64,000 nucleotides of DNA, from assembly GCF_001541925.1 (NCBI RefSeq), contig NZ_LQMW01000023.1:1-64000 (forward strand), given 5' to 3'. A program made the position numbers and the translations under genes. A model generated the notes under the pieces. It saw only the letters and a program-made list of their open reading frames with translations. It was not told the DNA's origin and ran no database searches. Positions 32,175-51,096 of this stretch are shown here, in pieces (position 1 is the first letter of the stretch; each line of letters starts with the position of its first letter). Origin of the DNA: Nitrosopumilus sp. Nsub. GTDB taxonomy: Archaea > Thermoproteota > Nitrososphaeria > Nitrososphaerales > Nitrosopumilaceae.

Positions 32175-32405
32175 TCATTTAGTTTCATCCATTTGTCGTC
32201 GTAATTTCTTTTCATTACCCTTCCAAATTTCTTCCATTTCTAAATGGTATTTGATCTTCTTTTGATACTTCTCATCGATAATATTTGAACTTGCCATCTC
32301 TTTTTCAAGTTTTTTTCTAGTTGACTCGTGAAATTGTATTTTAAACATTATTTCGTCTAATTTCTTTTCTTGAAATTTTTTTATCTTATTTTTAAAAAAA
32401 TCCAT
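32175..32405 (-). CDS. Small coiled-coil protein in the biotin locus
   Basis: 76 aa, highly charged, one long predicted helix with heptad-like spacing (FFKNKIKKFQEKKLDEIMFKI, STRKKLEKEMASS, KIKYHLEMEEIWKGNEKKLRRQMDETK). No known domain. It lies between bioA and a divergent gene 32450; biotin relevance is unproven. Confidence 0.55.
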   Translation of the reverse strand: MDFFKNKIKKFQEKKLDEIMFKIQFHESTRKKLEKEMASSNIIDEKYQKKIKYHLEMEEIWKGNEKKLRRQMDETK

Positions 32406-32449
32406 ATTCTAAGTATCTGATGATTTAACATAAAAATAATTAGATTATA

Positions 32450-33022
32450 ATGGAGAGAAACATAGATTACTACATGTCTGATGAATCAAACCCTGTCAAG
32501 GACTATCTTTTTAATTATATTGAAAAATCCAAAACTATTCCAAAATTAATAGCCGAACAAAAATTTGATGTAGTCATCAATGAAATTGTCCAAAATTGCT
32601 ATGATGATGTTATGTTGATTGATAAAAAAGATGAGGCTGTAGGCGTTTTGGCTACAGGAATACTCCATTATTTACTCACAAATGCACTTCTTACCAGTCA
32701 AAGAAAAGTCCCATACCGTGAATTGGAACTAGATATCGTCATTCCCGATGTCAGAACATTGGAAAAGGATCCAAAGATGTCTCTGTTAATTTTAATTCCT
32801 AAATCTTCAGATAAAAAAATTATTGATCAAAAAATTTCTCAACTGAATTCCATTCAACCGATTAAAGAAAATATCTGGGTTGTTTTATCTGAAAATATTT
32901 CTCTGGATTACAAAACTTTTATTTTATCTAAGGGTGATAACTCCTTTTCAAAGTTAATTTTTGAAATTGCACAGTTTTCAAATGTTGGAAAATCAAATAA
33001 ATTTAAAATTTTAAGAATTTAA
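32450..33022 (+). CDS. Hypothetical protein within the biotin locus
   Basis: 190 aa, soluble. The N-terminal half is helical (KDYLFNYIEKSKTIPKLIAEQKFDVVINEIVQNCYDD) with a Gly/Ala stretch VGVLATGILHYLLTNALL; the second half is alpha-beta (ELDIVIPDVRTLEKDPKMSLLILIPK, IWVVLSENISLDYKTFILSK). The ELDIVIPD strand with acidic residues faintly recalls PD-(D/E)xK nucleases but the full motif is not seen. It runs opposite to bioD and bioA and ends 2 bases from the bioD stop. Family not recognised; it could serve biotin metabolism or be unrelated. Confidence 0.75.
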   Translation: MERNIDYYMSDESNPVKDYLFNYIEKSKTIPKLIAEQKFDVVINEIVQNCYDDVMLIDKKDEAVGVLATGILHYLLTNALLTSQRKVPYRELELDIVIPDVRTLEKDPKMSLLILIPKSSDKKIIDQKISQLNSIQPIKENIWVVLSENISLDYKTFILSKGDNSFSKLIFEIAQFSNVGKSNKFKILRI

Positions 33023-33024
33023 AA

Positions 33025-33708
33025 TTATTTTAAAATTAATTTCATGTCAATATTTTTTTTAAAAATTCTGTATAGTGATTTATCACTCATATCTTTAATG
33101 AATGGAATTGAACCTAAAACCTTGATTCCAGTTAAACTCTCTAAATCTTTTTTTAATTGATTGATTGGATACCCCTTATCAAAATTATTAATTATAATTC
33201 CTTTTATTGGGATTTTGTATTTTTGACACATCTTTACTGTCATTATTGTGTGATTAACAGTACCAACTTTACTTCGTGTTACTATGATTGTAGGAATTTT
33301 CATATCTTTAATCAAATCTGTCACAAAATAATTTTTAAGAATTGGAGTCATGGTTCCGCCCATTCCTTCTATTAACATCATTTCATGTTTTTGAGATAAT
33401 TTTTTAAAACTGGATAGAATTAGTGAAATCTTTGGTTTAATCTTTAATTTTTTCCATGCTGTATATGGTGATGCAGATATGGGGAAAAATTGTGGATTTA
33501 GCAATTCTTCAGGATCATCTACCTTGGAAGAATTTGATAAAATTTCTACATCTTCGGATTTGAATCCTTTTTTTTGTTTTACACCTGCAGCAAAGGGTTT
33601 CATCACACCTACATCTATGTCCATTTTTTGTAAGGTAATTGCTAATCCTGCAGTGATGTATGTTTTTCCTACGTCTGTATCAGTTCCTGTAATGAAAATT
33701 GACTTCAT
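33025..33708 (-). CDS. bioD: Dethiobiotin synthetase
   Basis: 227-aa ATP-dependent carboxylase that closes the ureido ring of dethiobiotin. Signatures: ITGTDTDVGKTYITAGLA (P-loop, residues 6-23), VMKPFAAGVKQ, LIEGMGGTMTPI and TRSKVGTVNHTIMTV, with IKGIIINNF. Separated from bioA by two genes of unknown role. Completes the ring-assembly set bioA, B, D, F. Confidence 0.95.
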   Translation of the reverse strand: MKSIFITGTDTDVGKTYITAGLAITLQKMDIDVGVMKPFAAGVKQKKGFKSEDVEILSNSSKVDDPEELLNPQFFPISASPYTAWKKLKIKPKISLILSSFKKLSQKHEMMLIEGMGGTMTPILKNYFVTDLIKDMKIPTIIVTRSKVGTVNHTIMTVKMCQKYKIPIKGIIINNFDKGYPINQLKKDLESLTGIKVLGSIPFIKDMSDKSLYRIFKKNIDMKLILK

Positions 33709-33783
33709 GTTTTTCTAAACTGCTGTCCCTTGATTAATTCATCGATTTTATGATTATTGATGTACATCTAAGAAAATTTTTGG

Positions 33784-35178
33784 TTAGTCAGTAAAGACAT
33801 AACGTCTTTCGCCTCTACTTTCTGTTTCAGTTTTAACATCAACCAAAACAAATTCTTTTTTGGTGTGCATTTTAGATTCTTCTGGGGTGAGTTTGTTTTC
33901 GTGTAGGTCTTCATATTCGCTCCAAGTTAATCTTCTTCTTGGACCAATTTCTGCTTCTAAGTTCATGGCTTTGACAATGTCTTCGTATTCCGGTTGTACT
34001 ACTCCGCTGAAAACCATTGCACTGCTTCCACTTCCATATGATCCAAATCCTATTCTTTTGCCCTCTAAATCAACTCCCTTTTGATACTCAAATTCTAAAC
34101 TACTTCTAAATCCTAGATATAGTGATGCCGTATACAAATTACCAATCATAGATGATGCAATTAGTGAACTTGATAATTTTGATTCATACACATCTTGATA
34201 CTCTTGTGTTTTTGTAAACATCTTTGTAAATTCGTGATCTTTTGCCATAAATTCCTCATCGCCTAATACTGATTCAATTGTTCCTCTTGGATCTTTTGGA
34301 ACTGGCTCCTCTATTCCTATTTCTTCTAAGATGTTTTTCCATCTTGGTAATTGACGCCATTCGTGTCTAACTAAATAGGCTAGTGCTTTCTTTCCCATGT
34401 TACTGTAAGGTAAGTGCATGTTAATGTAATCCATATGATCTAAAATTGTTTCGCCATCTTTTAGTTCAATTAAATTTGTTGAAACCACTTTTTTCTTGTA
34501 TGCTTCTAATGCTTTTCTAACTTGAATCATGTATAGTAAATTAGAGTACTGTCCATGTACGATAGGAGTTTCTTTTCCAAATGGTCTGTAGAAATCATAC
34601 TCATCTTTAATTGATGTTGATGTGACTTTAGGATCAAATTCTAACAGTCTTGGTTTATCATTTAGTAACATTACAACTGAACCTGCACCTTGGGTCATTT
34701 CTCCACTAGAACCCATGTCATATTTTGCAATATCTGAAACAACTACTAGTGCACTTTTGCCCTCTGATTCTCCTGCTCTAATCCAATTGGTATTGTCATA
34801 TAGTGCATAAGATCCACTGACACATGCAAATTTTGTTTCAACCCCACCACAGTGTTCAAATGATCCTTGACCGTAAACTTGCTCTAACATTCCAATAACA
34901 TAAGAATTCATTGCTTTTGATTCATCAAATGCAGATTCTGTGGATATGTATAATCTTCCAATATCATCTGGATCTAAATTATTTTTCTCCATAATTCGTA
35001 AACATGCATTTGCAGCCAAACATGCTGGATCTTGATTTGCATCTACTATTGCCATTTGAGAAACCCCTAATCCTTTCTGTAATTTTACAGGATCTAGTCC
35101 TCTTGCATTTGCAAAATCTGCTGCATCAAGATATAATCTTGGAATGTATATTGCAACATCATCAATACCGGCTGCCAT
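33784..35178 (-). CDS. Hydroxymethylglutaryl-CoA synthase
   Basis: 464 aa. Condenses acetyl-CoA with acetoacetyl-CoA to HMG-CoA, the first committed step to mevalonate and archaeal isoprenoid lipids. Thiolase-like fold with the catalytic Cys119 in ETKFACVSGSYAL, an acid in TESAFDESK, and the late motif GFGSYGSGSSAMVFSG. Long archaeal/eukaryotic-type C-terminus (RRLTWSEYEDLHENK). 75 bases upstream of bioD, possibly a separate unit. Confidence 0.95.
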   Translation of the reverse strand: MAAGIDDVAIYIPRLYLDAADFANARGLDPVKLQKGLGVSQMAIVDANQDPACLAANACLRIMEKNNLDPDDIGRLYISTESAFDESKAMNSYVIGMLEQVYGQGSFEHCGGVETKFACVSGSYALYDNTNWIRAGESEGKSALVVVSDIAKYDMGSSGEMTQGAGSVVMLLNDKPRLLEFDPKVTSTSIKDEYDFYRPFGKETPIVHGQYSNLLYMIQVRKALEAYKKKVVSTNLIELKDGETILDHMDYINMHLPYSNMGKKALAYLVRHEWRQLPRWKNILEEIGIEEPVPKDPRGTIESVLGDEEFMAKDHEFTKMFTKTQEYQDVYESKLSSSLIASSMIGNLYTASLYLGFRSSLEFEYQKGVDLEGKRIGFGSYGSGSSAMVFSGVVQPEYEDIVKAMNLEAEIGPRRRLTWSEYEDLHENKLTPEESKMHTKKEFVLVDVKTETESRGERRYVFTD

Positions 35179-35278
35179 AAGCTTCGTCTTTTATCTGAGT
35201 AATTAAGTATTTGTTGTAAATTCTAGTTAACTAGGAATGAATTTTTTGTTCTGTTTTGGAATTTTTAGGCATTGATCG

Positions 35279-35983
35279 CTAATTTTCAAGTTGTTCATCA
35301 AACACTCTTTTAAATACCTCAAATGGTTGTGCCCCAAACAGTTTTGAAACTTGTCCATCTGAATTGATCACAAAAAATGCAGGGGTTCCAGTCAATTGTA
35401 ACTTTTCAGCATCCTCGTTACTTGAAAGAATTGTTTTTGAATGAGGTTTTTCATTCATGCATTCAGTCCACTGATCAATATCTAAATTGATTTCTTCAGC
35501 AAACACTGTCAGATTTTCTGGAGATGCCCAACCATTGTTTTCTCCTGTCCAGTTTGAATAAAGAATGTCATGATATTGCCAAAACAATCCTTGATCTTTG
35601 GCACAATGGGCTCCATGTGAAGCGTTAATTGAATCGGGACCTATGATGTTATAATCTTTAAAAATAATTTTTACTTTTCCAGTTTCAACATAGTTTGTAA
35701 TGATGTCCCCTTCAATGGTCTCAAAAAAGACATTACAGTAATGACATTGATAGTCGCCAAATTCTACTAATGTAATTGGTGCATTTGGATTTCCTAATAC
35801 TGTTGAACCATTTTCTAGAAATGTTTCTATGGTAATTTTGGCTGGTCCAACACTGTTCATTTCTGGTGTTGGCATAATTGCTAATTCTGACTCGTTAAAT
35901 GTTCCATTTAGTCCAAACATAACAACTACTATTGCAATTGATGCAATTATGGCGCCTATGGCTAAAGAAGGTGGATGTATCAA
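35279..35983 (-). CDS. DsbA-like thiol:disulfide oxidoreductase, membrane-anchored
   Basis: 234 aa. A single N-terminal helix (residues 8-26) anchors a thioredoxin-fold domain outside the membrane. The active site is Cys80/Cys83 in FGDYQCHYCNVFFE, then helical insertion GAHCAKDQGLFWQYHDILYSN and the cis-Pro loop LTGTPAFFVINSDG. Similar DsbA-like proteins are numerous in Thaumarchaeota. Could supply disulfides to the secreted Cys-containing proteins. Confidence 0.92.
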   Translation of the reverse strand: MIHPPSLAIGAIIASIAIVVVMFGLNGTFNESELAIMPTPEMNSVGPAKITIETFLENGSTVLGNPNAPITLVEFGDYQCHYCNVFFETIEGDIITNYVETGKVKIIFKDYNIIGPDSINASHGAHCAKDQGLFWQYHDILYSNWTGENNGWASPENLTVFAEEINLDIDQWTECMNEKPHSKTILSSNEDAEKLQLTGTPAFFVINSDGQVSKLFGAQPFEVFKRVFDEQLEN

Positions 35984-36121
35984 TAAATTGCATTTTTTTA
36001 AAGTACATTTAGCCTTTTAGGATATGATTCAGAGATATTCTTTTTTGACAAAACAAAACTACAGACAGTAAAGTCCTGTGATGTAGATTTTAATTCTTAT
36101 ACTCGAGGGGTAATCTAATAC

Positions 36122-37603
36122 ATGCCATACAGACAACAGTATTGCATCGTAAAGAAGATTGATCAAACCAACGAGTCTGAAAATCTAAAGGCAATCATAT
36201 CTTTGATAAATCAAGGAAATAATTTTACAGTTCAAGGTATTGGTGAGAGTTTAGACATTACACCATACTATGTCAAAAAGATAATTGATGAACTAGAGGC
36301 AAGTGGGATTGTCAAAAAAACTGGCATCATATCCTTGGAGGATTTTGTTGCACAATACGAGACAGTTGGATACTTTGCCAAACAACTCAAAAAAGTCCAG
36401 TATGTCAATCTCAAAAAGATAGGAGGCACCAGAGGTACCTATTTACAAATCCTCAGGCACTTTCACTACTATCTTTTAGGCAAGAAATTCACATACAAAA
36501 AAACAATTCAGACAGGTGTTGACTCTTTTAACATCAAAGAAGTAACTGAAACCTTGACTGGAGTTGATCATTTCTTGAGACTCTATCAAGACTCCTTTAA
36601 TTCTGAGGTGTATTTTGTCAAGATGATCAAAAACTACCTCCTGGATGAATGCCATGAAGGAAAAAAGCCCAATGTCATGAAAGGAACATGCAGCGTTATC
36701 AAGTCATTTTTTGATAAAAATGATTCAAAGATAGAGTTCTCATATGATCCAACAACGAATCATCAAAACTCTACTGATGAAGCAAAGATGGAACTAACTG
36801 ATTTGCTTGCAATGCTAACAGAAGGACAACCATCAATTATGGAAAAGGCAATGATTCTTTGCAAGTTTCACAGAGGACTAGATAATACAACCCTTGTTGA
36901 TTCCTTTAACTTTGAAGCATGGGGGCAATTAGTGCAAGCATTTGGAACCGATGAATACCAAAGATGGGATACAGCAAAATGTCCAGTCTTAATTAAATTG
37001 GTCAGAGTCAAAACACAATTTCCGCATGTTGGATTCTTAGATATTGATGCAATTGATGCACTAAAAAAATATCTCAAATACCGATATGAGTTGACAGGAA
37101 AAGTAATGACTGTAGATCAACCTTTGTTTGTTACCCAACGCAAAAATGCACTTAATGCAAAACAGATCTCAAACATTGTTCGAAGACTAGCAAAGGATTC
37201 AGGAATACAAAGACAACTCAAAGGATATGTCCGAAAGGTACGATATGAAAAAGGCTCTCATGAATTAAGAGATTTGTTGGATTCAACCCTTGACGTATGT
37301 GGGGTAACTCCATTTTTATCTGAACATGTAATCGGACACAAACAAAGTAGTTACAAAAAACAACATATCTTGTATCCTGAAAAATTACGAGAAGATTTCA
37401 AAAAGGCATCACATGCCATCAATATTTTCTCAAACATAACATCCTACATGAAAGAAGGTGGTTTAGATTCTGAGACAAAAGCAAAGGTGCAGAAACTAAT
37501 GAACTACTATGAAAAACGAGAAGCAGAAGATTCAGAAAATAAACGACAACTATTCTCTGATGGGTTTGAAAAAGCAATTGATGTACCTAGTTTCAAAAAC
37601 TAG
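36122..37603 (+). CDS. Tyrosine recombinase (integrase) with N-terminal winged helix
   Basis: 493 aa. Residues 15-75 form a helix-turn-helix (FTVQGIGESLDITPYYVKKIIDELEASGIVKK). Residues 120-210 resemble a core-binding domain. The catalytic domain (about 250-430) shows FHRGLDNTTLV (Arg I), the HELRD box (His, Arg II), SEHVIGHK (conserved Gly-His) and a Tyr nucleophile in SYKKQHILYPEKL. All key residues are present, so it may be active. The next 900 bases hold hairpins and short repeats but no tRNA gene. A cargo-less or decayed integrated element is likely; it has longer, less AT-rich codon choices than its neighbours. Confidence 0.88.
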   Translation: MPYRQQYCIVKKIDQTNESENLKAIISLINQGNNFTVQGIGESLDITPYYVKKIIDELEASGIVKKTGIISLEDFVAQYETVGYFAKQLKKVQYVNLKKIGGTRGTYLQILRHFHYYLLGKKFTYKKTIQTGVDSFNIKEVTETLTGVDHFLRLYQDSFNSEVYFVKMIKNYLLDECHEGKKPNVMKGTCSVIKSFFDKNDSKIEFSYDPTTNHQNSTDEAKMELTDLLAMLTEGQPSIMEKAMILCKFHRGLDNTTLVDSFNFEAWGQLVQAFGTDEYQRWDTAKCPVLIKLVRVKTQFPHVGFLDIDAIDALKKYLKYRYELTGKVMTVDQPLFVTQRKNALNAKQISNIVRRLAKDSGIQRQLKGYVRKVRYEKGSHELRDLLDSTLDVCGVTPFLSEHVIGHKQSSYKKQHILYPEKLREDFKKASHAINIFSNITSYMKEGGLDSETKAKVQKLMNYYEKREAEDSENKRQLFSDGFEKAIDVPSFKN

Positions 37604-37824
37604 GACTCACACTATTTTTCTAAAAGAAGAAATTATTCTCAAAGAAGAAGAGATCAAAAGAAGAAGAAAAGTACAATTTGTTCATGGTCTTTAAATGCAA
37701 AATGACTCCATTATACTTTATGAAAACTGAATCTAATGTAACATGGGAAGATTTGCAAGGATTGTCATTTTTAATCACAGAAGAATAAATCTGTTAAATG
37801 GACCGCACTTTGCACCAGAAATTT

Positions 37825-37848
37825 CTAAGGGTCTACACGAACCCTTAG
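37825..37848. repeat. Hairpin A of a pair near the integrase
   Basis: CTAAGGGT (37825-37832) and ACCCTTAG (37841-37848) are inverted around an 8-base loop. The stem sequence is the same as in hairpin B, 130 bases on. Confidence 0.7.
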
Positions 37849-37954
37849 GCGTTTGTTGTTATGATGTGCAGTAAACATTTGTCAAAGTATGGTTAATTGC
37901 ACCATACATCCATGCAGAGTATGACTCATTTCTAGTTCAAATTTTTACAAAGTT

Positions 37955-37978
37955 CTAAGGGTTCACAGGAACCCTTAG
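37955..37978. repeat. Hairpin B of a pair near the integrase
   Basis: CTAAGGGTTC (37955-37964) and GAACCCTTAG (37969-37978) form a perfect 10-bp stem with a 4-base loop (11 bp counting the flanking T-A). Repeats the stem of hairpin A. Confidence 0.75.
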
Positions 37979-38353
37979 AGGATTATTTTGAAGATACCTT
38001 TCAAATTGACTCCATTTTAACAAAAGAGATTCATTTTTTATCAAAAATCACCTATTTCGTGCGTAATTTTTTTACATTAGTATGGTAAGAAAGTATAACG
38101 GATTTAGAACATGTGCCTCTTTGCCCTTTTGCTGTAGTATAACCTGAAAAGTATAACCTGTATGCTGTTGATAAAAAATTATTTCATGCAAAAAAAGACT
38201 CTAGTTTCAAAAGCAACTACGATTTTTTGGGGAGATTTATTTCAAAAGGCAAAACTGTTATGGAATCACGTTCATCAAAAGTAAAACTGTTATAATATTT
38301 GATGAATAATTTTGAATTAAAACAAATTTCAACTTATTGATACGTAATTGTTT

Positions 38354-38370
38354 TATGATTTAAAATCATA
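38354..38370. terminator. AT-rich hairpin
   Basis: TATGATTT and AAATCATA flank a single A: an 8-bp perfect stem in the gene-poor region. Its AT content makes it weak; may be a 3'-end signal or chance. Confidence 0.3.
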
Positions 38371-38426
38371 ATAATATTGTAGGAATCGCCCCTGCACAAG
38401 TACGAAAAACATTCTTGACATGAATT

Positions 38427-38447
38427 TTGGGGAACATGTGTCCCCAA
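38427..38447. terminator. G/C-rich hairpin with T-run on both sides
   Basis: TTGGGGA (38427-38433) and TCCCCAA (38441-38447) form a 7-bp stem followed by TTTTATT. On the minus strand it lies about 95 bases past the end of the Lrp-type gene 38541..38780 and could terminate it. Confidence 0.45.
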
Positions 38448-38540
38448 TTTTATTAATTTTAATATGTAATACTATTGCACAAAAATAATACCGTGAATGC
38501 TTTATATTATTTTTTTTCAAAAATTTTATTTTTTGATAAT

Positions 38541-38780
38541 TTAACACTGTTTATTGATTGCCATTAATGTCATGGTTGAACGAACATTTTTGATATTTCT
38601 AATTGTACTGATAATATTTTGTCTTAATTCCTCATGTTGTTCACATTCTAAATTTGCTAAAACATCATAAGCTCCAAATACTCCTTGAACAGATTTCACA
38701 CATTCGATATTTTTTAAATCTTCTAAAACTTGAATTTCTGAACCCAATTCACAATTTATCAACACAAATGCTTTATTCAT
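38541..38780 (-). CDS. Stand-alone Lrp/AsnC ligand-binding (RAM) domain protein
   Basis: 79 aa: KAFVLINCELGSEIQVLEDLKNIECVKSVQGVFGAYDVLANLECE is the classic beta-alpha-beta start of the RAM domain, ending VRSTMTLMAINK. There is no DNA-binding half, so it is a stand-alone sensor that may bind amino acids or pair with full-length Lrp regulators. A decayed relative seems to lie at 39375..39480. Starts the cluster of stress and signal genes. Confidence 0.9.
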   Translation of the reverse strand: MNKAFVLINCELGSEIQVLEDLKNIECVKSVQGVFGAYDVLANLECEQHEELRQNIISTIRNIKNVRSTMTLMAINKQC

Positions 38781-38943
38781 AACTAAATTTCTCCAAAAAT
38801 AGATTCACAATAAAATTAGATAAAAATTATATTTTAATTGAAATAGAAAAATTCTTAATATTTGTTAATTTTAATAATACTTATCAACACAAATGTTTAT
38901 TATTTAAAGAATCATTTAAGTAATATTTTGTCATAAACTTATT

Positions 38944-39339
38944 GTGACTTCTTTTGAAAATCTATTAACAAAAATTATGAATTCAGATGTGAATATCAGA
39001 CATAGCATAATTACCGATATTGAAGGAAAAATATTGACAACTAATCACAGGGATGGAATTACAAATTATCTATCTCAAGAGGAAACTGAGGCATCCCTTC
39101 AAAGAGCAGCTACTGCATGGAAAGCTAGAAAACAATTAAGTCAAAAAATTGGAATTGGATTATATGCTGTTGCTGCATTTGAAAAAATTACTAGAATTAC
39201 TTTTCCCTTAGGTGATGAAAATTTAATTTTTGTTAGTATGGGATCTGATACAGTTAGAATGGATCTTCATGAAGGAGGTCAAAAACAAATAATCGAACAT
39301 GTCTTAAACATATTAAGTCGTGATCCTACAAAAGAATAG
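38944..39339 (+). CDS. Thaumarchaeal conserved protein, DUF6659-like
   Basis: 131 aa, soluble. Profilin/roadblock-like start SDVNIRHSIITDIEGKILTTNHRDGITNYLS, a helix EETEASLQRAATAWKARKQLSQKIG and a sheet GLYAVAAFEKITRITFPLGDENLIFVSMGS. This looks like the small sensor-type proteins seen repeatedly in Thaumarchaeota (DUF6659 by recollection, moderate). The start is GTG at 38944. Divergent from the Lrp-type gene. Confidence 0.7.
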   Translation: MTSFENLLTKIMNSDVNIRHSIITDIEGKILTTNHRDGITNYLSQEETEASLQRAATAWKARKQLSQKIGIGLYAVAAFEKITRITFPLGDENLIFVSMGSDTVRMDLHEGGQKQIIEHVLNILSRDPTKE

Positions 39340-39374
39340 TCTAATTATTGTAAATTCTAGATTGCAAATTTATT

Positions 39375-39480
39375 TTGAACATTCTGTCATATGTTCTCAT
39401 TACTTGTCATCCTGGTTCTGAACCAGATGTGATCTCTGAGATTAGTTCCATTACCAGTTCTAAATCCGTGATTTTTGTTT
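39375..39480 (+). pseudogene. Truncated Lrp/AsnC RAM-domain fragment
   Basis: From a TTG at 39375 the frame reads LSYVLITCHPGSEPDVIS and continues EISSITSSKSV, aligning with AFVLINCELGSEIQVLED...KSV of the intact protein at 38541..38780, including the C-x-x-G-S-E and the following helix. After about 33 residues the similarity ends where the family has GAYD, and the frame runs into the antisense of the UspA gene. Best read as a decayed duplicate. Confidence 0.5.
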
Positions 39481-39502
39481 CAAATTCAAGTTCAGAAGAA
39501 TC

Positions 39503-39964
39503 TCAAGAATCTAACAATAAGACAGGACATTTTCCAATTTCCACAATTTTTCTTGAAACACTGCCTAGAGATAAAAGTCTCTTAATTCCTGACAGTTTTT
39601 TTCTTTTTGCCATTACAATTAGATCAAAATGATGATTTTTAATATATTTTGTAATGACTTCATCTGCATATCCTGTCATTACTTTGTATTTGATGTTGAC
39701 GTTTTTTGATTTATAAAATTCTGTTTTTCTTTCCATTTCTTTTTTTCTATTAATCAATGATTGTTTTGCAGCTTTTTTAAACTCCCTTACCAATGCCTTG
39801 CTTTCTGTTCCAGATAATGCAAATGTTGGTGGTCTTTGCAATGATTCTACAACATGTAAAATTAAAATTTCTGATGAATCATATTTTGCAATATGTACTG
39901 CATGTTTGAGTGCTTTATCGCCTGCAGAAGTACCTGCATGAGGAACTAAAATTTTTTTGTACAT
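39503..39964 (-). CDS. Universal stress protein (UspA family)
   Basis: 153 aa from the ATG at 39964 (MYKKILVPHAGTSAGDKALKHAV); ten more codons are open upstream. Usp fold with ILILHVVES and the C-terminal VLLLDS. The usual ATP-binding G-x2-G-x9-G(S/T) loop is degenerate (AKRKKLSGIKRLLSLGS), so this member may not bind ATP, unlike the others here. Confidence 0.9.
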   Translation of the reverse strand: MYKKILVPHAGTSAGDKALKHAVHIAKYDSSEILILHVVESLQRPPTFALSGTESKALVREFKKAAKQSLINRKKEMERKTEFYKSKNVNIKYKVMTGYADEVITKYIKNHHFDLIVMAKRKKLSGIKRLLSLGSVSRKIVEIGKCPVLLLDS

Positions 39965-40075
39965 AATTTGTTTTAGATAAATGAAGTATTTCAAGATTCA
40001 AGACATTTTCTTTATTGATATTCACATATGAATATTGCATAACTTTGTTAAATATTATTTTTACAAATGTAAGTT

Positions 40076-40564
40076 ATGGTTACGAAGCGAACACCTGAAA
40101 AAATATCAAATAATGCTTCTCCTTGGTACGCAAATTGGGGTGATCTTGAAAAAGTATTTGATGATTTTAGAAGTGATCTTGAAAGATCGTTTACTTCGTT
40201 TCCATCAATCCATGTTCCACAAATAGTACAAACTACTCAAAATTCATGTGATGTAATTGATGAAGGCAATCATTACAAAGTAATCATGAACATGCCTGGA
40301 GTTGAAAAAAAAGACATTAAGCTTAACGTGACTGATAATTCAATTGAGGTATCTGCAGAACACAAAGAAGAATCTAAAGAAAAAAAGAAGAACTATCTGA
40401 GAAAAGAACGTAATCATGTGTCTTATTATAGAACTCTTCCTTTTTCTGAAAAAATAGTTTCTGGAAAAACAAATGCAAAACTTACAAATGGAATTTTAGA
40501 AATTCACATACCAAAACTAAAACCATCAAAAAAACAAAACAAAAGATCTATATCAATACGATAA
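40076..40564 (+). CDS. Small heat-shock protein (Hsp20/alpha-crystallin)
   Basis: 162 aa. ATP-independent chaperone. N-terminal arm with Trp/Phe (WYANWGDLEKVFDDFRSDLERSF), alpha-crystallin domain from about 65 to 150 (YKVIMNMPGVEKKDIKLNVTDNSIEVSAEHKEE, RTLPFSEKIVSGKTNAKLTNGILEIHIPK), C-terminal SISIR with an I-x-I motif. Divergent from the UspA gene with about 110 bases between, which likely hold stress promoters. Confidence 0.96.
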   Translation: MVTKRTPEKISNNASPWYANWGDLEKVFDDFRSDLERSFTSFPSIHVPQIVQTTQNSCDVIDEGNHYKVIMNMPGVEKKDIKLNVTDNSIEVSAEHKEESKEKKKNYLRKERNHVSYYRTLPFSEKIVSGKTNAKLTNGILEIHIPKLKPSKKQNKRSISIR

Positions 40565-40575
40565 AATCCAAAAAC

Positions 40576-41571
40576 ATGTATTTTCTAATTATATTTTCAA
40601 TGTGCGTTATTTTATTTTCAATTCCTATTGTATATGCAGAGGAATACTTGGTAGACATTCCCTTTGGGGCATATAATCCAGAATTAAATACGCCTGCAGA
40701 AGTGTGGTATGACCCTCCACAAATGTTCATTACAGTGGGAGATGCAATAACTTGGCATAATGGGGATAGAGAAGGACACACAGTTACTAGTGGAGAGAGT
40801 TCTGGAAGATTTGGTTGGATGAACAATAACGATTTTGGAAAACCTGATGGAGTTTTTGATAGTGGTTTATTCAAACCAGGGGAATCTTGGAAATATCAAT
40901 TTGATGAATCTGGTGTTTTTTCTTATTATTGCACAATTCATCCTTGGATGGAAGCAGTTGTCATTGTAGAAAAAGAAATTCCAAATTTCCCTCATGATGC
41001 GACAGGCAAACAATTGGAATTTCCTCTTTTACAATATACTCCAGATAGAAATATTGAAGTAAATTTAACGTGGGATCCTCCTGTAATTAGAACTCACGAA
41101 AAAGTTCAATTCGTATATCAGTTCTATGATCCTGATACAAACTCTAATCTTGCAAAAATGAAATATGATTTTATAATATTTCAAAATGGAGAAAAGATTT
41201 TTCATGATGAAGGTTTGAGTCAAATTGGAGGAGATTATCGAAATTTCATTTTTGATGATTCAGGCTCAATTGTTATTCGAATTCAAAAAATTCATTCATC
41301 TTCTATTCTTGCAGAAGAGGGTGTTACAGTTCGTGGAAATATTCATAATAATGAACAAAGATCCGTAGATTTTACTACAGTAGTATATGATAATCCTGAA
41401 AAAACTAATCATGAAATTTATCATACAAAACCTGCTCAAAGACTTGAAATTTACTATGAATTAATGATATTCATGATTTTTATTCCAGCTGTTTTGTTTA
41501 TTGCAGCATTACTTTGGTTAAAGAAAAAACCAAATTTTTCACAAAGCACACCAGGTGCGGTGAAAATTTAA
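40576..41571 (+). CDS. Membrane-anchored cupredoxin (blue copper) protein
   Basis: 331 aa. Signal peptide 1-21 (VYAEE), then a plastocyanin-like copper domain with likely ligands His68 (EGHTVTSG), Cys119, His122 and Met125 (YYCTIHPWMEA). Residues 135-290 are a second beta-rich domain (PVIRTHEKVQFVYQFYDPD). A C-terminal helix (about 300-320, LMIFMIFIPAVLFIAALLWL) anchors it with the domains outside. Thaumarchaeota use many such proteins as electron carriers in place of cytochromes. 11 bases after hsp20. Confidence 0.93.
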   Translation: MYFLIIFSMCVILFSIPIVYAEEYLVDIPFGAYNPELNTPAEVWYDPPQMFITVGDAITWHNGDREGHTVTSGESSGRFGWMNNNDFGKPDGVFDSGLFKPGESWKYQFDESGVFSYYCTIHPWMEAVVIVEKEIPNFPHDATGKQLEFPLLQYTPDRNIEVNLTWDPPVIRTHEKVQFVYQFYDPDTNSNLAKMKYDFIIFQNGEKIFHDEGLSQIGGDYRNFIFDDSGSIVIRIQKIHSSSILAEEGVTVRGNIHNNEQRSVDFTTVVYDNPEKTNHEIYHTKPAQRLEIYYELMIFMIFIPAVLFIAALLWLKKKPNFSQSTPGAVKI

Positions 41572-41828
41572 AATAATGTCAAAAATATGTTTACATGGCA
41601 CATCATTAGTTAAATCCGACATATTGTCTTGAATTTAATTTGAGGTATTTCTTCAATTTTTAATATGATTTCAGTAGCCATAAAGAAGATTCTTTTAGAT
41701 TGTAGTAAATAACAAAAACAATTTTCAATAATGCATTTTACTTTTAATAATGTTAATTAAATTATAATTCCATTAAAATCATGAAACAAGTTAATTTCAT
41801 ATCCAAAAATATGTAATTAAAAATAAAA

Positions 41829-42158
41829 TCAGTTGTTGAGTATCAACTCTACTTCTATATTTCCATCTCGAAATACGCTTTGAATTCCTCTGACTTTACT
41901 TTTGTATAGGAATAATTTTTTTCCATCATCAGTAATAATTCCAGATATTTTAAGCAATTTGTGATCGTGTAATAATTGAATTTTTCTGTATGCTGTACTC
42001 ATTGGAATTTGAGTTTCTCTAGTAATTTCCATTACTGATTTTGGCTTATGTGTTATTGATTCAATTATGGTTCTACAATATTTATCAGATAAAATACCAA
42101 GTAAATTATTTTTTTGATCTGTTTCTACAATTTTGAATGTGTGATGAAATGTTTGCAT
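41829..42158 (-). CDS. Winged-helix transcriptional regulator
   Basis: 109 aa from the ATG at 42158 (MQTFHHTFKIVET); the frame extends to 42206. The HTH is DKYCRTIIESITHKPKSVMEITRETQIPMSTAYRKIQLLHDHKLLKISG, an ArsR-like fold; the wing is DGKKLFLYKSKVRGIQSVF. A likely DNA-binding regulator; the divergent gene at 42415 (symporter) is a natural target. Confidence 0.82.
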   Translation of the reverse strand: MQTFHHTFKIVETDQKNNLLGILSDKYCRTIIESITHKPKSVMEITRETQIPMSTAYRKIQLLHDHKLLKISGIITDDGKKLFLYKSKVRGIQSVFRDGNIEVELILNN

Positions 42159-42414
42159 AAATAATATTGGACATATTTTGATATAATGACTAAGACTACG
42201 TTGCAATGCAATGCACTTCTTGAAATGAATGTATGAGAATCAAATTTTAGAGTATTTGGATAAAATTGGACATAATTATTTGTTCATCCATTTTTGTATG
42301 ATGTGCGAAATGTATACTTAAAAATCTCAACAGAAATGTTAAAAAAACTAAATCAAGATTTTCACCTCGGAGAACGTGACTACTTTTTTTATCTTCTAAA
42401 ACACATCATAAAGG

Positions 42415-43734
42415 ATGGTGGAGATAAGATCTTTTACACAATCTATTCCTCAGATAAAATATCTCATAAAGAAGAAACTTTGGGCACAGGTTCTGTTTGC
42501 ATTGTTTGTTGGATTATTAGTTGGTCTTGTATTGGGACCAGAAACAGGATGGGTTGAAAAAGAGACTGCTGAAACAATAACTGATTGGTTATCCATTCCT
42601 GCCAATTTGTTTTTAAAAGTTATTCAGATGATCATAGTTCCGCTAATTTTTGCATCAATAATCCGAGGTTTGACATCTTCAGGTAGTTTAGAACAATTAC
42701 AAAAGATTGGATTAGGAGCTGCAGTATATTTTGTAATAACCACTGCAATTGCACTTACAATTGGCATAATTATTGCAACTACGATAGAACCTGGCAATTT
42801 TATTGATAGTGACTTGATTAAAGAAAGTTTTGGGATTGAAGATTTAGAACCAGTTGAGAGTTATAATCTTTCGATTCATGACATTCCTCAAAGTATAGTG
42901 GGTTTGGTTCCAAGCAATCCACTTTCCTCGTTTATGTCTGGTGAAATGTTAAGCATAATCATTTTTGCGTTAATTGTAGGGGTTGCAATGATCACATTAC
43001 CAACTAAAAGCTCAAGACCAATTCTTGATTTGTTGGAATCCATTCAAGATTTTACAATGAAGGTAGTGTCTTGGGCAATGCGTCTTGCACCATTTGCAGC
43101 ATTTGGTCTTATGGCAGGAATAATATCAAAAGTTGGACTTTCTGCATTAGCAGGGCTTGGCGCATACATGGCAACAGTAGTTGCAGGTCTTTTTATCATG
43201 ATGATGGTATACATCATAATCATCAAGTTTTTTGCAAAAAGACCCTTGTCCTCTACTTTGTCAACAATAAAGGAACCTCAACTCTTAGCATTTTCAACAT
43301 CTAGTTCTGCAGCAACAATGCCAGTATCAATTAAAACTGCAGAAGAAAAGTTAAAGGTCAAACCAAAGGTTTCTCAATTTATCATTCCCCTCGGAGCCAC
43401 AATTAACATGGATGGTACTGCAATGTATCAGATAATTGCAGTATTTTTCTTGGCTCAACTCTTTGATGTTAATCTAAGCTTTACAACAATAATTCTAATT
43501 GCATTGACTTCTCTTGCAGCATCAATAGGAGCTCCATCTGCTCCGGGAACTGGAATTGTAATACTTTCAACAATTCTAATTGCTGCTGGACTTCCTGCAA
43601 TAGGTGTTGTTTTACTTTTGGGAGTAGACAGAATACTGGATATGACTAGAACTATGGTAAATGTTACAGGTGATCTTACTGCTTGCATGTTCTTCAATAA
43701 AAGAATAAAAAATGAGTCACCTGAAGAACAATAA
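42415..43734 (+). CDS. Dicarboxylate/amino-acid:cation symporter (DAACS family)
   Basis: 439-aa transporter like GltPh/GltP/DctA. Eight helices and two hairpins expected. Diagnostic motifs: LFLKVIQMIIVPLIFASIIRG, the Ser-rich HP1 FSTSSSAATMPVSI, INMDGTAMYQIIAVFFLAQ (TM7 sodium-site region), ASIGAPSAPGTGIVILSTIL (HP2) and VDRILDMTRTMVNVTGD in TM8 (substrate-binding Asp and Arg). Imports glutamate, aspartate or C4-dicarboxylates with sodium or protons; the Arg in DMTRTMVN favours acidic substrates. ATG 42415 overlaps GTG 42418. Confidence 0.95.
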   Translation: MVEIRSFTQSIPQIKYLIKKKLWAQVLFALFVGLLVGLVLGPETGWVEKETAETITDWLSIPANLFLKVIQMIIVPLIFASIIRGLTSSGSLEQLQKIGLGAAVYFVITTAIALTIGIIIATTIEPGNFIDSDLIKESFGIEDLEPVESYNLSIHDIPQSIVGLVPSNPLSSFMSGEMLSIIIFALIVGVAMITLPTKSSRPILDLLESIQDFTMKVVSWAMRLAPFAAFGLMAGIISKVGLSALAGLGAYMATVVAGLFIMMMVYIIIIKFFAKRPLSSTLSTIKEPQLLAFSTSSSAATMPVSIKTAEEKLKVKPKVSQFIIPLGATINMDGTAMYQIIAVFFLAQLFDVNLSFTTIILIALTSLAASIGAPSAPGTGIVILSTILIAAGLPAIGVVLLLGVDRILDMTRTMVNVTGDLTACMFFNKRIKNESPEEQ

Positions 43735-44056
43735 TGAAATCATTTTAGAGATATAGTATTTTTGGGAGAGTTTGGTTCACAGACCAATAGTCGTATTACA
43801 AGCATTGATTTGAGATAAATTGCTTATTGTTAAATGAAAATTAATCCCAAAGTAGGCTTTTCTTGAGATATATTTCTGATGAAAGAATGTGGATTTTGAT
43901 TAAAAACTAGAACTAAGAAATGTCATTTAATTCTGTTTTTTCACATTATAAAGATAAATTTGGAAAATTTCTTTATATGCAATAATTTTTTGCAATCCTG
44001 TTTGGCAGATTTACTTTTTGTACGCCATATGCTATTTTTTAACAAATTCTAAACTA
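43735..44056. other. Intergenic, convergent genes
   Basis: 322 bases between convergent genes (symporter and UspA). Nothing beyond AT-rich sequence is visible; no tRNA or convincing frame. Confidence 0.5.
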
Positions 44057-44485
44057 TCATTTTATGACTAGTACTGGTTTTTTGGATTTATGCATTACAT
44101 AGTTTGATACACTTCCAAAAAATAATTCTTTTGCGGCGCCTATTCCTCTTGCACCAATTACTATAATATCAATTTTATTTTTAGGATTGTTTGCAAATTT
44201 TACAATATCATAACCTGGATCTCCTGATATCATTTTTCCATTCAGTTTAATCCCTTTTTTTTCTGCACGAGTTTTTGCAGAAGCTAGTAATTTTTTTATT
44301 TCTGAGGATTTGTCAAAATTCATAAATCCCAACGGATGAAAAGCATAGATGTCTGGTATGGGTTTTATAGATAATGCTGTAATTGTTCCGTGTGATTGTT
44401 TGGCTAAATCAATTCCCATGTCTAACCCTCTCAAAGAGTTTTTTGAACCATCTAATGCAACAAGAATTTTTTTAATCTTTGTCAT
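44057..44485 (-). CDS. Universal stress protein (UspA family)
   Basis: 142 aa. Starts with the family pattern KIKKILVALDGSKNSLRGLDMGIDLAKQS and has the ATP-binding loop IVIGARGIGAAKELFFGSVSNYVMHKSKKPVLVIK, so ATP binding is expected. Strikingly similar to the Usp at 46487..46912 and 45175..45606, indicating recent duplications. Divergent from the CBS gene at 44600. Confidence 0.95.
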   Translation of the reverse strand: MTKIKKILVALDGSKNSLRGLDMGIDLAKQSHGTITALSIKPIPDIYAFHPLGFMNFDKSSEIKKLLASAKTRAEKKGIKLNGKMISGDPGYDIVKFANNPKNKIDIIVIGARGIGAAKELFFGSVSNYVMHKSKKPVLVIK

Positions 44486-44573
44486 ATGGTAATTAATTTC
44501 AAGAATTTAAAGTAAAAATGTTTTATCAATTATCAAAATTGATTGCCACTAATGATAATTTAGAACCCTTATC

Positions 44574-44580
44574 ATATAAT
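44574..44580 (+). promoter_or_regulatory. TATA-like box before CBS gene
   Basis: ATATAAT (44574-44580) lies about 20-26 bases before the ATG at 44600; this spacing suits an archaeal TATA box with a leaderless or nearly leaderless transcript. Confidence 0.4.
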
Positions 44581-44599
44581 TAAAAAATATTTGTAATTT

Positions 44600-44977
44600 A
44601 TGAAAATGATTGCAAATGATATCATGAATGAAAATGTAGTGTTCACTGAAAAAACAAATTGGATACAAGAAGTTGCAGAAAAAATGAATACACTAAATGT
44701 CAGTTATGTCATAATAGTTGACAAAACCAAACCAATAGGAATTGTAACTGAAAAAGATTTTGCTGCCAAAATTATTTCTAAAGGACAACCATTATTTACT
44801 GAAATTCATGAGATAATGTCATCGCCACTAATTACTGTTAGTCCAGAAAAAACAATACATGACATTATAGAAATAATGAAAAAGAGAGAAATTCATAAAC
44901 TGCCAGTTCAGAAAAATGGAAAAATTATTGGCATGATCACTGCAATAGATATTGTAAAAAATTCTTCTTCAGGTTAA
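44600..44977 (+). CDS. CBS-domain pair protein
   Basis: 125 aa made of two CBS motifs: IMNENVVFTEKTNWIQEVAEKMNTLNVSYVIIVDKTKPIGIVTEKDFAAKI and IMSSPLITVSPEKTIHDIIEIMKKREIHKLPVQKNGKIIGMITAIDIV. CBS pairs sense adenosine nucleotides such as AMP, ATP or SAM. No effector domain is attached, so it may regulate a partner in trans; the neighbouring Usp proteins are the obvious candidates (inference). Confidence 0.95.
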   Translation: MKMIANDIMNENVVFTEKTNWIQEVAEKMNTLNVSYVIIVDKTKPIGIVTEKDFAAKIISKGQPLFTEIHEIMSSPLITVSPEKTIHDIIEIMKKREIHKLPVQKNGKIIGMITAIDIVKNSSSG

Positions 44978-45174
44978 AGCAAATTAAAGTACAAAATATG
45001 GTTCAAATATTTTTGAGAAATATGCCTGATTTTCCATAAAACAAATTGATTTTATAAAAAAAATTCTAGGAGAAATATTTGCCAAGTTATTTTTATCTGC
45101 TGTTCCTACTGAAATAATCCCTTGGGAATCAATAAATTTTTTAATTTTAGAAGAAATTTTCCTGATATTTGAAA

Positions 45175-45606
45175 TTATTTGACAATAGTTACAGGAGCCT
45201 TTGCTTTATGCAAAATAAAATTTGAGGTGCTTCCAAAAAACAACTCCATAGGAAATCCCATTCCTCGGGAACCTATGACGATTTGATCAATTTCATTAGC
45301 AGGATTATTTGCAAATGTGGTCAAATCAATACCTGACGTATGACCTCCAATAACAACTGCGTTAAACGGAATTTTGTTTTTTTCCATCTTTTTTTTAACC
45401 TTATTCATTATTTCTCTTGCATTTTTCTTCCATTTTTTTTCTGGAAGTATAGGAGCTCTAACAGCAGAAAATGCACTAAAACTTGTATCACTATGAACGC
45501 CAATAATGGCCGCACCAGATTGTTTTGCAAATAAAATTGCTTTATCTAACCCTCTCAAAGAGTTTTTTGAACCATCTAAACAAACCATTATTTTCTTTAA
45601 ACTCAT
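45175..45606 (-). CDS. Universal stress protein (UspA family)
   Basis: 143 aa. KIMVCLDGSKNSLRGLDKAILFAKQSGAAIIGVHSD, ending IVIGSRGMGFPMELFFGSTSNFILHKAKAPVTIVK with an intact ATP-binding G-x2-G-x9-GS loop. Close to the copies at 44057 and 46487. Confidence 0.95.
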   Translation of the reverse strand: MSLKKIMVCLDGSKNSLRGLDKAILFAKQSGAAIIGVHSDTSFSAFSAVRAPILPEKKWKKNAREIMNKVKKKMEKNKIPFNAVVIGGHTSGIDLTTFANNPANEIDQIVIGSRGMGFPMELFFGSTSNFILHKAKAPVTIVK

Positions 45607-45725
45607 ACTAAAAAATTGATTTAATCTCTATTTATCTAACGTACTTGTTTACTAAGATTGAAAATAATTCTACAGTGTGTTTTATTGCCAATTATGATGT
45701 CAAAATATACAAAAATAATTTAAAA

Positions 45726-45836
45726 TTATTGCCATCTGTCTCTAAATTGATGACAATCACAGATACATCCTTTTTGGCAACGCATTCTCTTACAATCTGT
45801 ACAGATTTTTTTATTCCAATATGGTGCAGTATTCAT
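45726..45836 (-). CDS. Cys-rich microprotein (putative zinc binder)
   Basis: 36 aa with six Cys and one His in ICTDCKRMRCQKGCICDCH, flanked by NTAPYWNKK and QFRDRWQ. The spacing CxxC-x4-C-x3-C-x-C-x-C-H would allow one or two metal ions. ATG and TAA are clean; nothing competes in this 300-base gap. Several proteins of this kind occur in the window (51756, 56303, 56404, 62821). Confidence 0.55.
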   Translation of the reverse strand: MNTAPYWNKKICTDCKRMRCQKGCICDCHQFRDRWQ

Positions 45837-45911
45837 ATTTGATTCAATGAAGAGATATTGCGAACTTTTAAAAAAATTAATGTAGTAAAGATCACAATCA
45901 TTATCTCATTT

Positions 45912-46373
45912 CTAAAGATAAGGACTATAATTGGCAAAAATTTTGACAACTGAATGAAAATACATATCTCGGACATCTTGTTCAGTACATGTTGCCAACA
46001 AATTAACAACATCTCTAGCAGTTATGATTCCTACAACATTTTCATTGTCAACTACGGGTAATTTCAATATTTTTCTATCGTGCATTAAATCTGCAGCAGT
46101 TCTTATGGATTCATCAGAATTGATTGAAAATAAAGGAGATGACATTATTTGTTTAATTTGTGAAGTAATTGGGTATGCGTGAGCTACAGCTTTTATTGCA
46201 AAATCCCTATCTGTGACAATGCCTATTGGAGAATTATTTTCCATGACTATAATTGCGCCTACTTTAGCATCTTCCATCATTTTTGCAGATTCATTAATCG
46301 TCATTGAAGAATCAACAGAAACAACAGATTTTGTCATTACATTTTCAACAGTGAGAGTTTTACCATTATTCAT
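45912..46373 (-). CDS. CBS-domain pair protein
   Basis: 153 aa. Two CBS motifs: VMTKSVVSVDSSMTINESAKMMEDAKVGAIIVMENNSPIGIVTDRDFAIK and IMSSPLFSINSDESIRTAADLMHDRKILKLPVVDNENVVGIITARDVV, followed by a helical tail CTEQDVRDMYFHSVVKIFANY that is absent in 44600..44977. Likely nucleotide sensor. Confidence 0.95.
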   Translation of the reverse strand: MNNGKTLTVENVMTKSVVSVDSSMTINESAKMMEDAKVGAIIVMENNSPIGIVTDRDFAIKAVAHAYPITSQIKQIMSSPLFSINSDESIRTAADLMHDRKILKLPVVDNENVVGIITARDVVNLLATCTEQDVRDMYFHSVVKIFANYSPYL

Positions 46374-46462
46374 TTATTCTATTATGTTAAATCCAGTATA
46401 TGATAAGGATTCTAAATTATCAGTGGTGGTAATCAATTTCGATAATTAGTGTGGTCTTTAAA

Positions 46463-46472
46463 CTTTATAATG
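46463..46472 (+). promoter_or_regulatory. TATA-like box before Usp gene
   Basis: CTTTATAATG lies 15-24 bases before the GTG start at 46487, a spacing that fits a leaderless archaeal transcript. Confidence 0.35.
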
Positions 46473-46486
46473 TTTTATTTTAATAT

Positions 46487-46912
46487 GTGGTAATTAAAAT
46501 TAAAAAAATTCTTGTTGCATTAGATGGTTCAAAAAATTCTTTCAAATGTCTTGATGTTGCCATTAATTTGGCTAGACAGTGTCAAGCTTCTATTACTTGT
46601 CTATATGTACTAGAAATAGAAAAGCCTCAAACAAATCAACAAATTTCTCCATTAGAAAAAAAATTATTATTATTTGCACAAAAAGTTATGGAAAAAGCAA
46701 AGATTGAAACAACAAAACACGAGATTTTATTTTTTGATGAAATTTCTTATGGGGACAGTGGGAAAAGAATTGTGGATGTTGCACAAAGAAAAAACTTTGA
46801 CATGATAGTAATTGGTTCAAGAGGAATAGGCGCCGCAAAAGAATTGTTTTTTGGAAGTGTATCAAACTACGTTTTACATAAATCAAAAAAGCCAGTTTTG
46901 ATTGTAAAATGA
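46487..46912 (+). CDS. Universal stress protein (UspA family)
   Basis: 141 aa from a GTG start (MVIKIKKILVALDGSKNSFKCLDVA). An overlapping ATG two bases earlier is out of frame and stops at once. Ends IVIGSRGIGAAKELFFGSVSNYVLHKSKKPVLIVK, nearly identical to the C-terminus of 44057..44485, so these two are the closest pair in the cluster. Convergent with the CBS gene 46918..47829, five bases apart. Confidence 0.95.
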   Translation: MVIKIKKILVALDGSKNSFKCLDVAINLARQCQASITCLYVLEIEKPQTNQQISPLEKKLLLFAQKVMEKAKIETTKHEILFFDEISYGDSGKRIVDVAQRKNFDMIVIGSRGIGAAKELFFGSVSNYVLHKSKKPVLIVK

Positions 46913-46917
46913 AATTA

Positions 46918-47829
46918 TCAAATTAGAACATGCACAATATCCGATTTGGTAATTATTCCGCATAATTTTGATTTTTTAACCACGGGAATCCCACTGATAT
47001 TGTATTTGATCATAAGTTTTATGGCATATTGGATGTCTTTATCGCTCTCAACTGTAACGGGATTGGGTGTCATTATGTCTGTAGCATGAAATGGAAATAG
47101 ATAACTCATTTGATTTGAATCCATCTCATTGAATCCTTTTTTGAATTTGTATTCTTGAACTTCTTTAGGATCTGCGGAATCTGCAATCCATTGAGGTATT
47201 TTTGCAGGAACAAAATCTCTAAAAGTTATAATTCCCACAGGTTTTTGGTCCCTTTTTATAATTATTCGAGATATTCTATATTTCATCAATAAATTTTCTA
47301 CAAGTAATATTGGATCACTTGGTTCAGCTGAAATTACCTTTTTTTTCATAATTTTTGAAACTTTGATTGGTGTTGTTTCAGTAGTGAGGAAAATTTTCAC
47401 AAGACTTGTTTTTGTAACAATTCCTTCTAGTGTGTTATCATCATTTAATATGATTATTGAACTAATACCATACTTTTTCATCATCTTTGCACATTCTTGA
47501 ATAGAATTGTTTCTAGTTAATGTGAATATTTTTTTTGGTTTGAATTCTTTTGCTTTTACTGATTTTATTGATTTTGTGCCTAATCCATAAATCTTTTTAG
47601 CAATATCTTTTTCAGTTATAATTCCAACTGGTTTTCTTTTATCTACTACTATCACTCGTTTTATTTTATTTTCTAATAGAATTTCTCTTGCTTTAACAAG
47701 CGTTGTGTTTGGGCTTATTGTATTTGGTTTTATAATGATTTTTGATAATTTTAAATTTTTTGTATTCACAAAATCTTTAGTAGACAATTTGTTAAATACA
47801 TCAACTACAATATCTTTATTGAAAATCAC
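46918..47829 (-). CDS. Four-CBS-domain protein
   Basis: 303 aa with four CBS repeats in tandem: IIIKPNTISPNTTLVKAREILLENKIKRVIVV, FKPKKIFTLTRNNSIQECAKMMKKYGISSIIIL, KKVISAEPSDPILLVENLLMKYRISRIII and IMTPNPVTVESDKDIQYAIKLMIKYNISGIPVV. Each ends in the pattern (P)xGIITxxD. No other domain. Two CBS pairs could form a closed ring sensing two ligands. Longest of the three CBS proteins here. Confidence 0.94.
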   Translation of the reverse strand: MIFNKDIVVDVFNKLSTKDFVNTKNLKLSKIIIKPNTISPNTTLVKAREILLENKIKRVIVVDKRKPVGIITEKDIAKKIYGLGTKSIKSVKAKEFKPKKIFTLTRNNSIQECAKMMKKYGISSIIILNDDNTLEGIVTKTSLVKIFLTTETTPIKVSKIMKKKVISAEPSDPILLVENLLMKYRISRIIIKRDQKPVGIITFRDFVPAKIPQWIADSADPKEVQEYKFKKGFNEMDSNQMSYLFPFHATDIMTPNPVTVESDKDIQYAIKLMIKYNISGIPVVKKSKLCGIITKSDIVHVLI

Positions 47830-47959
47830 ATATGAGAATTTACGTGTTAATTTAAAGAAATTTAAAACAAGTACAAGTTATGAAAAACATTGTAATTAAT
47901 TCAGTATTAAAAAATACAGTAATTATTGCAATCAAAAAAAATCCATGGGATGTGTAAAC

Positions 47960-48739: not shown

Positions 48740-48753
48740 TGGGATAAAGTATA

Positions 48754-49650: not shown

Positions 49651-49677
49651 TCTAGATTTTATTAGATTCACTCAAAA

Positions 49678-49938: not shown

Positions 49939-50192
49939 ATTATTAAAACCACATTACACAACAATCTCCCTTTTAGTCTGAATTCCCCAGTTTTCTTTCT
50001 TATGTTGTTTGAATCTTGGCAAATTAATTGCAATAATATTTTAAAATAAGGTATGGCATTTTGGATATTGTCTTGTTTGTAATGTTTTATGTAATTTGTT
50101 TTTGACACAAGTAAATTTTCCAAATCAAAGCACAACAATAGTGTTTTAATTTGTAAGAAATGTACTAGTGAATTATAAAAAATGGTTAATTA

Positions 50193-50999: not shown

Positions 51000-51096
51000 T
51001 ATAATTAATTTTTACCGTTTACATAAAAATATTGTTACATTTTTTATGTTTGAAACTTTTATTAAAAATTAATAACTGCTCAAAACATCTTAAATT

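Follow-up and report, generated by a model that had tools for sequence, protein, structure and literature searches.

The closest known counterparts of the locus considered here are the cryptic integrated elements of Thaumarchaeota (Krupovic et al. 2019, PMC6563490), which have a median size of 17 kb and att sites of at least 8 bp, and whose cargo includes UspA, dctA, PetE, and wHTH genes. Thirty-nine of the 68 mapped thaumarchaeal elements lie in tRNA genes, 15 are intergenic, and 14 lie in protein genes; integration away from a tRNA gene, which a preliminary description of this DNA had called atypical, is therefore not so in this phylum (29/68 elements outside tRNA genes; PMC6563490). In a 2021 review, recombination at archaeal inter- and intragenic sites was described as untested (PMC8371274). 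A further point of comparison is provided by the integrases of dusA genomic islands, which likewise insert into a conserved protein gene at its 5' end (PMC4482086); those integrases are bacterial and have one fixed target gene, whereas the family described below is small and archaeal and has several targets.

The window (i.e., the whole 64-kb stretch of DNA analyzed) very probably contains a 16.0-kb thaumarchaeal cryptic integrated element (integrative island) that was inserted by its own tyrosine recombinase. The insertion is precise, its 9-bp core is duplicated at a motif upstream of dsbA, an intact integrase lies at one end, and relatives carry the empty site. The element is a new, well-delimited member of the described class, which it resembles in size, short att sites, single integrase, UspA/dctA/PetE/wHTH cargo, and intergenic target: it is a discrete insertion absent from close relatives, bounded by a short direct repeat, with the integrase at one end. 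It differs from the published elements (PMC6563490) in that its exact site is an invariant dsbA upstream motif, in that the site is occupied in a sister genome by a 660-bp integrase-less insert whose ends are similar, and in its element-specific twin palindromes. Thus, a “lone” integrase turns out to mark an archaeal mobile element whose limits are fully mapped, whose att core is 9 bp long, and whose empty sites are proven; precise intergenic att sites of this kind are rare for archaea.

Element boundaries and empty sites

The features that delimit the element are as follows.

36010-52010, no strand: integrated element, bounded by two att core copies, with synteny to eight same-genus genomes broken at both ends
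36010-36018, no strand: attL core TAGCCTTTT, identical to the copy at 52002-52010 in direct orientation; spans -27 to -35 relative to the start codon of the dsbA-like gene
52002-52010, no strand: attR core TAGCCTTTT, 40 bp ahead of the GAPDH-like start
35279-35983, minus strand: host dsbA-like gene (target, left flank)
52050-53102, plus strand: host GAPDH-like gene (right flank), named from its N-terminal sequence

With one core copy counted, the element is 15,992 bp long, and it sits in the spacer between the dsbA-like and GAPDH-like genes with the recombinase gene at its left edge. Similarity of the flanks to same-genus genomes extends up to approximately 36018, is absent inside, and returns from approximately 52002, such that in synteny comparisons, 33784-36018 and 52002-63999 are contiguous in relatives. 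The site is empty in eight same-genus genomes (G006, G024, G023, G101, G108, G102, G086, and G001), where the two flanking genes are divergent neighbors separated by a spacer of 73 to 75 bp. G108 (L049) has a single copy of TAGCCTTTT in the same context as the window; joining the window's two flanks restores the empty site at the core and its neighboring bases and matches G108 exactly around the core (ACATT-TAGCCTTTT-GTTCAATTAGT). G023 and G101 have TAGTCTTTT at the core position instead. In the 64-kb window, the 9-mer TAGCCTTTT has just two copies. As aligned, relatives without the element prove the exact insertion point. The preliminary description had suggested a search for empty sites in relatives, which proves an integration event; its suggestion that the locus could be the residue of an excised element does not hold, as the complete 16-kb element is present. 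Both breakpoints carry the exact 9-bp repeat.

Dyad symmetry at attB is not significant (313/500 shuffles were equally good), and the attP junction was not found in a viral contig collection; both points weigh against the reading of a mobile element. The same collection contained no integrase relative. Repeats at the element ends were considered as arm-type Int sites and rejected, as besides the core there are just AT-rich inverted matches. To the left of the element, a two-gene block at 32177-33748 (a BioD-like gene and an ORF at 32450) is inverted relative to L048, L049, L050, and L053.

We posit that the insertion arose by recombination between a circular form of the element, in which attP (TAGCCTTTT) lay where the right end meets the left, and attB, the identical 9 bp of the dsbA/GAPDH spacer. 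The duplicated core would leave the upstream sequences of both dsbA and GAPDH in place.

The target site and its other occupants

The att core falls within an invariant upstream motif of dsbA. The hexamer ATTTAG is invariant in 67/67 dsbA-GAPDH intervals (a count that includes duplicate loci of a few genomes) always 22 to 24 bp away from where dsbA starts; across the same intervals there is almost no variation in the bases that overlap the att core, and the longer motif ATTTAG.C.TTT occurs once in the window. Set against established archaeal promoter anatomy, the conservation, position, and composition of this motif would fit a core promoter of the TATA/BRE type that serves a leaderless gene. 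Duplication of the core means that dsbA retains at least 35 bp and GAPDH 40 bp of their own upstream sequence, so both predicted core promoters should still work with the element inserted; by analogy with tRNA ends, the spacer would thus be a tolerated landing site.

What else occupies this interval? In the sister genome G054 (L045 5342-6010, G054:C80), the dsbA site is occupied by a 660-bp insert with one 126-aa ORF and no integrase; the ends of this insert resemble those of the 16-kb element over approximately 25 bp on the left and approximately 60 bp on the right. Among the dsbA-GAPDH intervals, this is the only insert with such ends; it could be either a remnant or a nonautonomous relative of the 16-kb element, and its similar ends at the same site are counted in favor of a mobile element.

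Could the interval instead hold ancestral genes that were lost from relatives, with no mobile element involved? Many genomes of the genus do have 0.3 to 16 kb between dsbA and GAPDH, as such differential loss would have it, but the ORFs of all six large intervals examined form an unrelated cluster that is syntenic among them (with, among others, genes resembling response regulators and glycosyltransferases), and the sole match to element ORFs across all dsbA-GAPDH intervals is one Usp family in G085. Moreover, differential loss would not be expected to give an exact duplicated core at both breakpoints, and the same cargo order without the integrase is absent from the examined genomes. We therefore regard loss as very improbable. 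Given the different gene cluster shared by the six large intervals, the idea that dsbA-GAPDH is an integration hotspot was also rejected.

Similarly, an assembly or binning artefact might have joined foreign DNA to a host contig, given that the host genome (1.38 Mb and Nitrosopumilus-like) is a 26-contig draft. However, a single contig spans both flanks, each junction coincides with a copy of the 9-bp repeat seen in the empty site, the GC content is the same inside and outside the element (0.296 versus 0.30 to 0.31), and the G054 insert with similar ends is at the same site. Such a joining error has, in our estimation, very little probability, and we retain the reading of a mobile element.

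The integrase

One gene defines the left edge of the element.

36122-37603, plus strand: tyrosine recombinase (integrase), 493 aa, open ORF with an N-terminal winged-helix-like region, 5' end toward attL

The gene starts 104 bp inside the left end, measured from the attL core. The core thus lies outside an intact ORF, which is not split as in suicidal (SSV/pTN3-type) integration. The protein matches the Pfam Phage_integrase model with an E value of 1.7e-4, under the curated cutoff, and 21 of the 24 family members match the same model. The AlphaFold model of the protein is of good confidence over its catalytic core and resembles XerA and lambda Int (PDB 5hxy and 1z19), with which it shares the catalytic fold and the K, H-x-x-R, H, and Y motifs.

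The preliminary description had reported a lone tyrosine recombinase with all catalytic residues present. The recombinase is indeed present and intact, yet not alone, as it belongs to the 15,992-bp element; likewise, K297, H380, R383, H406, and Y411 are all in place and conserved across the family, but the first catalytic arginine is noncanonical. In contrast to XerA and lambda Int, the family has an invariant G-x-D (G252 and D254) in box I where G-x-R is expected (residues 251 to 263, of the type RGLDxST..D.FNF). In an alignment, and in a profile comparison against L008, which is a conventional archaeal integrase, D254 falls on or next to the site of the first catalytic arginine. Two nearby arginines could be considered: R251, next to the box I motif, is missing in L142, L143, and L004, and R261, which many relatives have, is replaced by Ser in the protein described here; each is missing in some members and each is thus dispensable. 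The family-wide invariants include G252, D254, T257, R295, and K297, and H380, R383, H406, and Y411 are nearly invariant. The spacing of the conserved Tyr also differs. In XerD and lambda Int, the Tyr lies 9 residues past the GH motif, whereas the conserved Tyr of the window family lies just 5 to 6 residues past it.

Taken together, sequence and structural model point to the ORF at 36122-37603 as a divergent tyrosine recombinase; given the noncanonical box I arginine, its activity is not certain.

Does a sole, divergent recombinase point to a domesticated, Xer-like chromosomal enzyme in a fixed place? The integrase is the only tyrosine recombinase detectable in the host genome, as this explanation would have it. 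However, it is absent from most of the genus, the family members are at different loci, and at the dsbA-GAPDH locus, domestication is refuted by the empty sites. The pattern that the preliminary description associated with a domesticated enzyme, the same integrase fixed in place in all relatives, is not what is seen, as no other genus genome has this integrase here. Domestication is thus extremely improbable, and the enzyme is best viewed as the element's own integrase.

Cargo

The remainder of the element carries the following genes.

38541-38780, minus strand: 79-aa stand-alone Lrp/AsnC ligand-binding-like protein (named by eye), with homologues beside the G083 and G110 integrases
38944-39339, plus strand: 131-aa conserved protein, no Pfam match
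39503-39994, minus strand: universal stress protein (Usp)
40076-40564, plus strand: Hsp20
40576-41571, plus strand: plastocyanin/azurin-like copper protein, with a 48% identical homologue near the G083 integrase
41829-42206, minus strand: winged-helix regulator (weak Pfam HTH_20 match), with a homologue near the G083 integrase
42415-43734, plus strand: sodium:dicarboxylate symporter, 79% identical in G083
44057-48739, no single strand: Usp/CBS-domain block, with genes at 44057 (minus), 44600 (plus), 45175 (minus), 45912 (minus), 46487 (plus), 46918 (minus), and 48305 (plus)
47945, plus strand: hypothetical protein inside the Usp/CBS block
48754-49650, plus strand: malate/lactate dehydrogenase, the genome's second copy (host copy G000:C12, 34% identical)
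50193-50999, minus strand: ParB N-terminal-domain protein, 93% identical in G071, on another contig
51097-51294, plus strand: 65-aa lysine-rich protein

Stress, copper, and transport genes thus enter a small-genome marine ammonia oxidizer on such an element. The closest relatives lack the symporter, and their only malate/lactate dehydrogenase is the host copy, which is 33 to 35% identical; the best dehydrogenase match is in G083 (60%). The absence of the symporter and of this dehydrogenase variant from the closest relatives is counted in favor of a mobile element. Parts of the cargo recur in mosaics elsewhere: the integrase, HTH, copper, and Lrp-like proteins in G083, and the symporter, ParB, and copper proteins in G022 and G066. 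The segment with the ParB and lysine-rich genes has 87.6% DNA identity to G071.

No capsid, casposase, or conjugation genes were found in a Pfam scan of the larger cargo genes and a reading of the short ORFs by eye, as is the case for cryptic integrated elements; the larger cargo genes thus lack the conjugation genes of an integrative-conjugative element. No replication gene was recognized in the element. Because no conjugation or capsid gene was recognized, we speculate that transfer probably relies on helpers or transformation.

Palindromes, short repeats, and the noncoding stretch

A noncoding stretch lies downstream of the integrase gene.

37604-38540, no strand: noncoding stretch, 937 bp, flanked by convergent genes; contains the two palindromes and short repeats that include ATAAC/GTTAT
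37825-37848, no strand: palindrome 1, CTAAGGGT-N8-ACCCTTAG, exact
37954-37979, no strand: palindrome 2, TCTAAGGGTTC-N4-GAACCCTTAGA, with the shared stem CTAAGGGT-8-ACCCTTAG exact at 37955-37978

The two hairpins with the same stem 130 bases apart, as first described, are confirmed as exact palindromes; their stems are identical, and their 47-bp surroundings are 77% alike overall. They are the only two perfect inverted repeats with arms of at least 8 nt and at least 50% GC in the 64 kb. None of 500 dinucleotide shuffles of the 937-bp region reached two such palindromes, and shuffles of the whole 64 kb gave 0 to 4; what stands out is therefore that the two are clustered and have the same stem. 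The two reported pairs of 11-base direct repeats are also present (AGTATAACCTG at 38136/38150 and AAAACTGTTAT at 38251/38283), with weak significance (5/500 shuffles reached the count, in which a low-complexity pair was also included). The reported absence of a tRNA gene nearby is likewise correct, the only tRNA of the window being at 10860-10934.

Do these hairpins and repeats serve as att sites, a possibility raised in the preliminary description, or do they form a cassette-like array that the recombinase moves? The palindromes are far beyond chance and adjoin the integrase gene, but both are on one side, 1.8 kb inside the element, with no sequence break at the hairpins, and integrase relatives have no such pair downstream. 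The mapped junctions contradict this reading: the core is TAGCCTTTT at 36010 and 52002. A role of the hairpins as att sites is accordingly extremely unlikely, and the 9-bp repeats remain the att cores.

Among 94 other genus genomes, the palindrome is absent except for one match with two mismatches in G049; the pair was found downstream of none of 24 integrase relatives, which removes it as a general feature of the integrase family, and the 937-bp stretch has no homologue in any fetched locus. The RNA fold of the stretch has a z score of -3.6. A role of the palindromes as parS sites for the ParB protein is unlikely, as the palindrome is missing from G071, whose ParB is 93% identical. We infer that a pair of regulator-binding sites, or a region resembling an origin, is a likelier role for the palindromes than recombination, making the 937-bp stretch a candidate regulatory or replication region.

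The integrase family and its targets

Relatives of the integrase occur in 32/250 family-level genomes, at loci in Nitrosopumilales and Nitrosopumilaceae. In four of them, the integrase gene starts 86 to 247 bp from a tRNA gene, and in others it starts 35 to 170 bp from a conserved gene (neighbor genes were named by eye); that is, they have the same layout as the window element. In one cluster (L124, L126, L128, L129/L012, and L130), the integrase faces the 3' end of a fen1-like gene, and further relatives face the start of a conserved gene. Neighbors of other family members include cdvA (L137), a phosphoglucosamine mutase-like gene (L122), a DUF371-like gene (L123), and a VOC gene (L140).

Two of these loci are informative about the site of insertion. 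A 13.8-kb element of G110 with a related integrase (G110:C1, approximately 1035910-1049720; L173 and L192) lies between cdvA and a divergent gene, with an empty site in G083 (L191), G041, and G013 and a shared 11-bp core, ATTAAATTCAC. In G071 (L207 1152; G071:C3, approximately 15151), an element carrying a related integrase abuts SRP19, with a synteny break at the first codons of that gene and a start codon of TTG for ATG; the second end of this element was not found on the contig. As read from the aligned genomes, integration on the 5' or promoter side has occurred at least three times in this family (dsbA, cdvA, and SRP19), alongside tRNA and 3'-end targets.

Promoter-side targeting and the altered box I may be small novelties. 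Could the two be general properties of one lineage? We tentatively raise, as a somewhat doubtful proposal, a thaumarchaeal integrase subfamily in which the first catalytic arginine is replaced by an invariant aspartate and which repeatedly lands on the 5' or promoter side of conserved housekeeping genes (dsbA, cdvA, SRP19, and probably others), where the invariant promoter sequence would serve as a safe landing site in the way that tRNA genes do for other elements.

In a separate observation, G009:C1 317144-318150 (L061) carries a decayed integrase relative with several stop codons in the matched frames.
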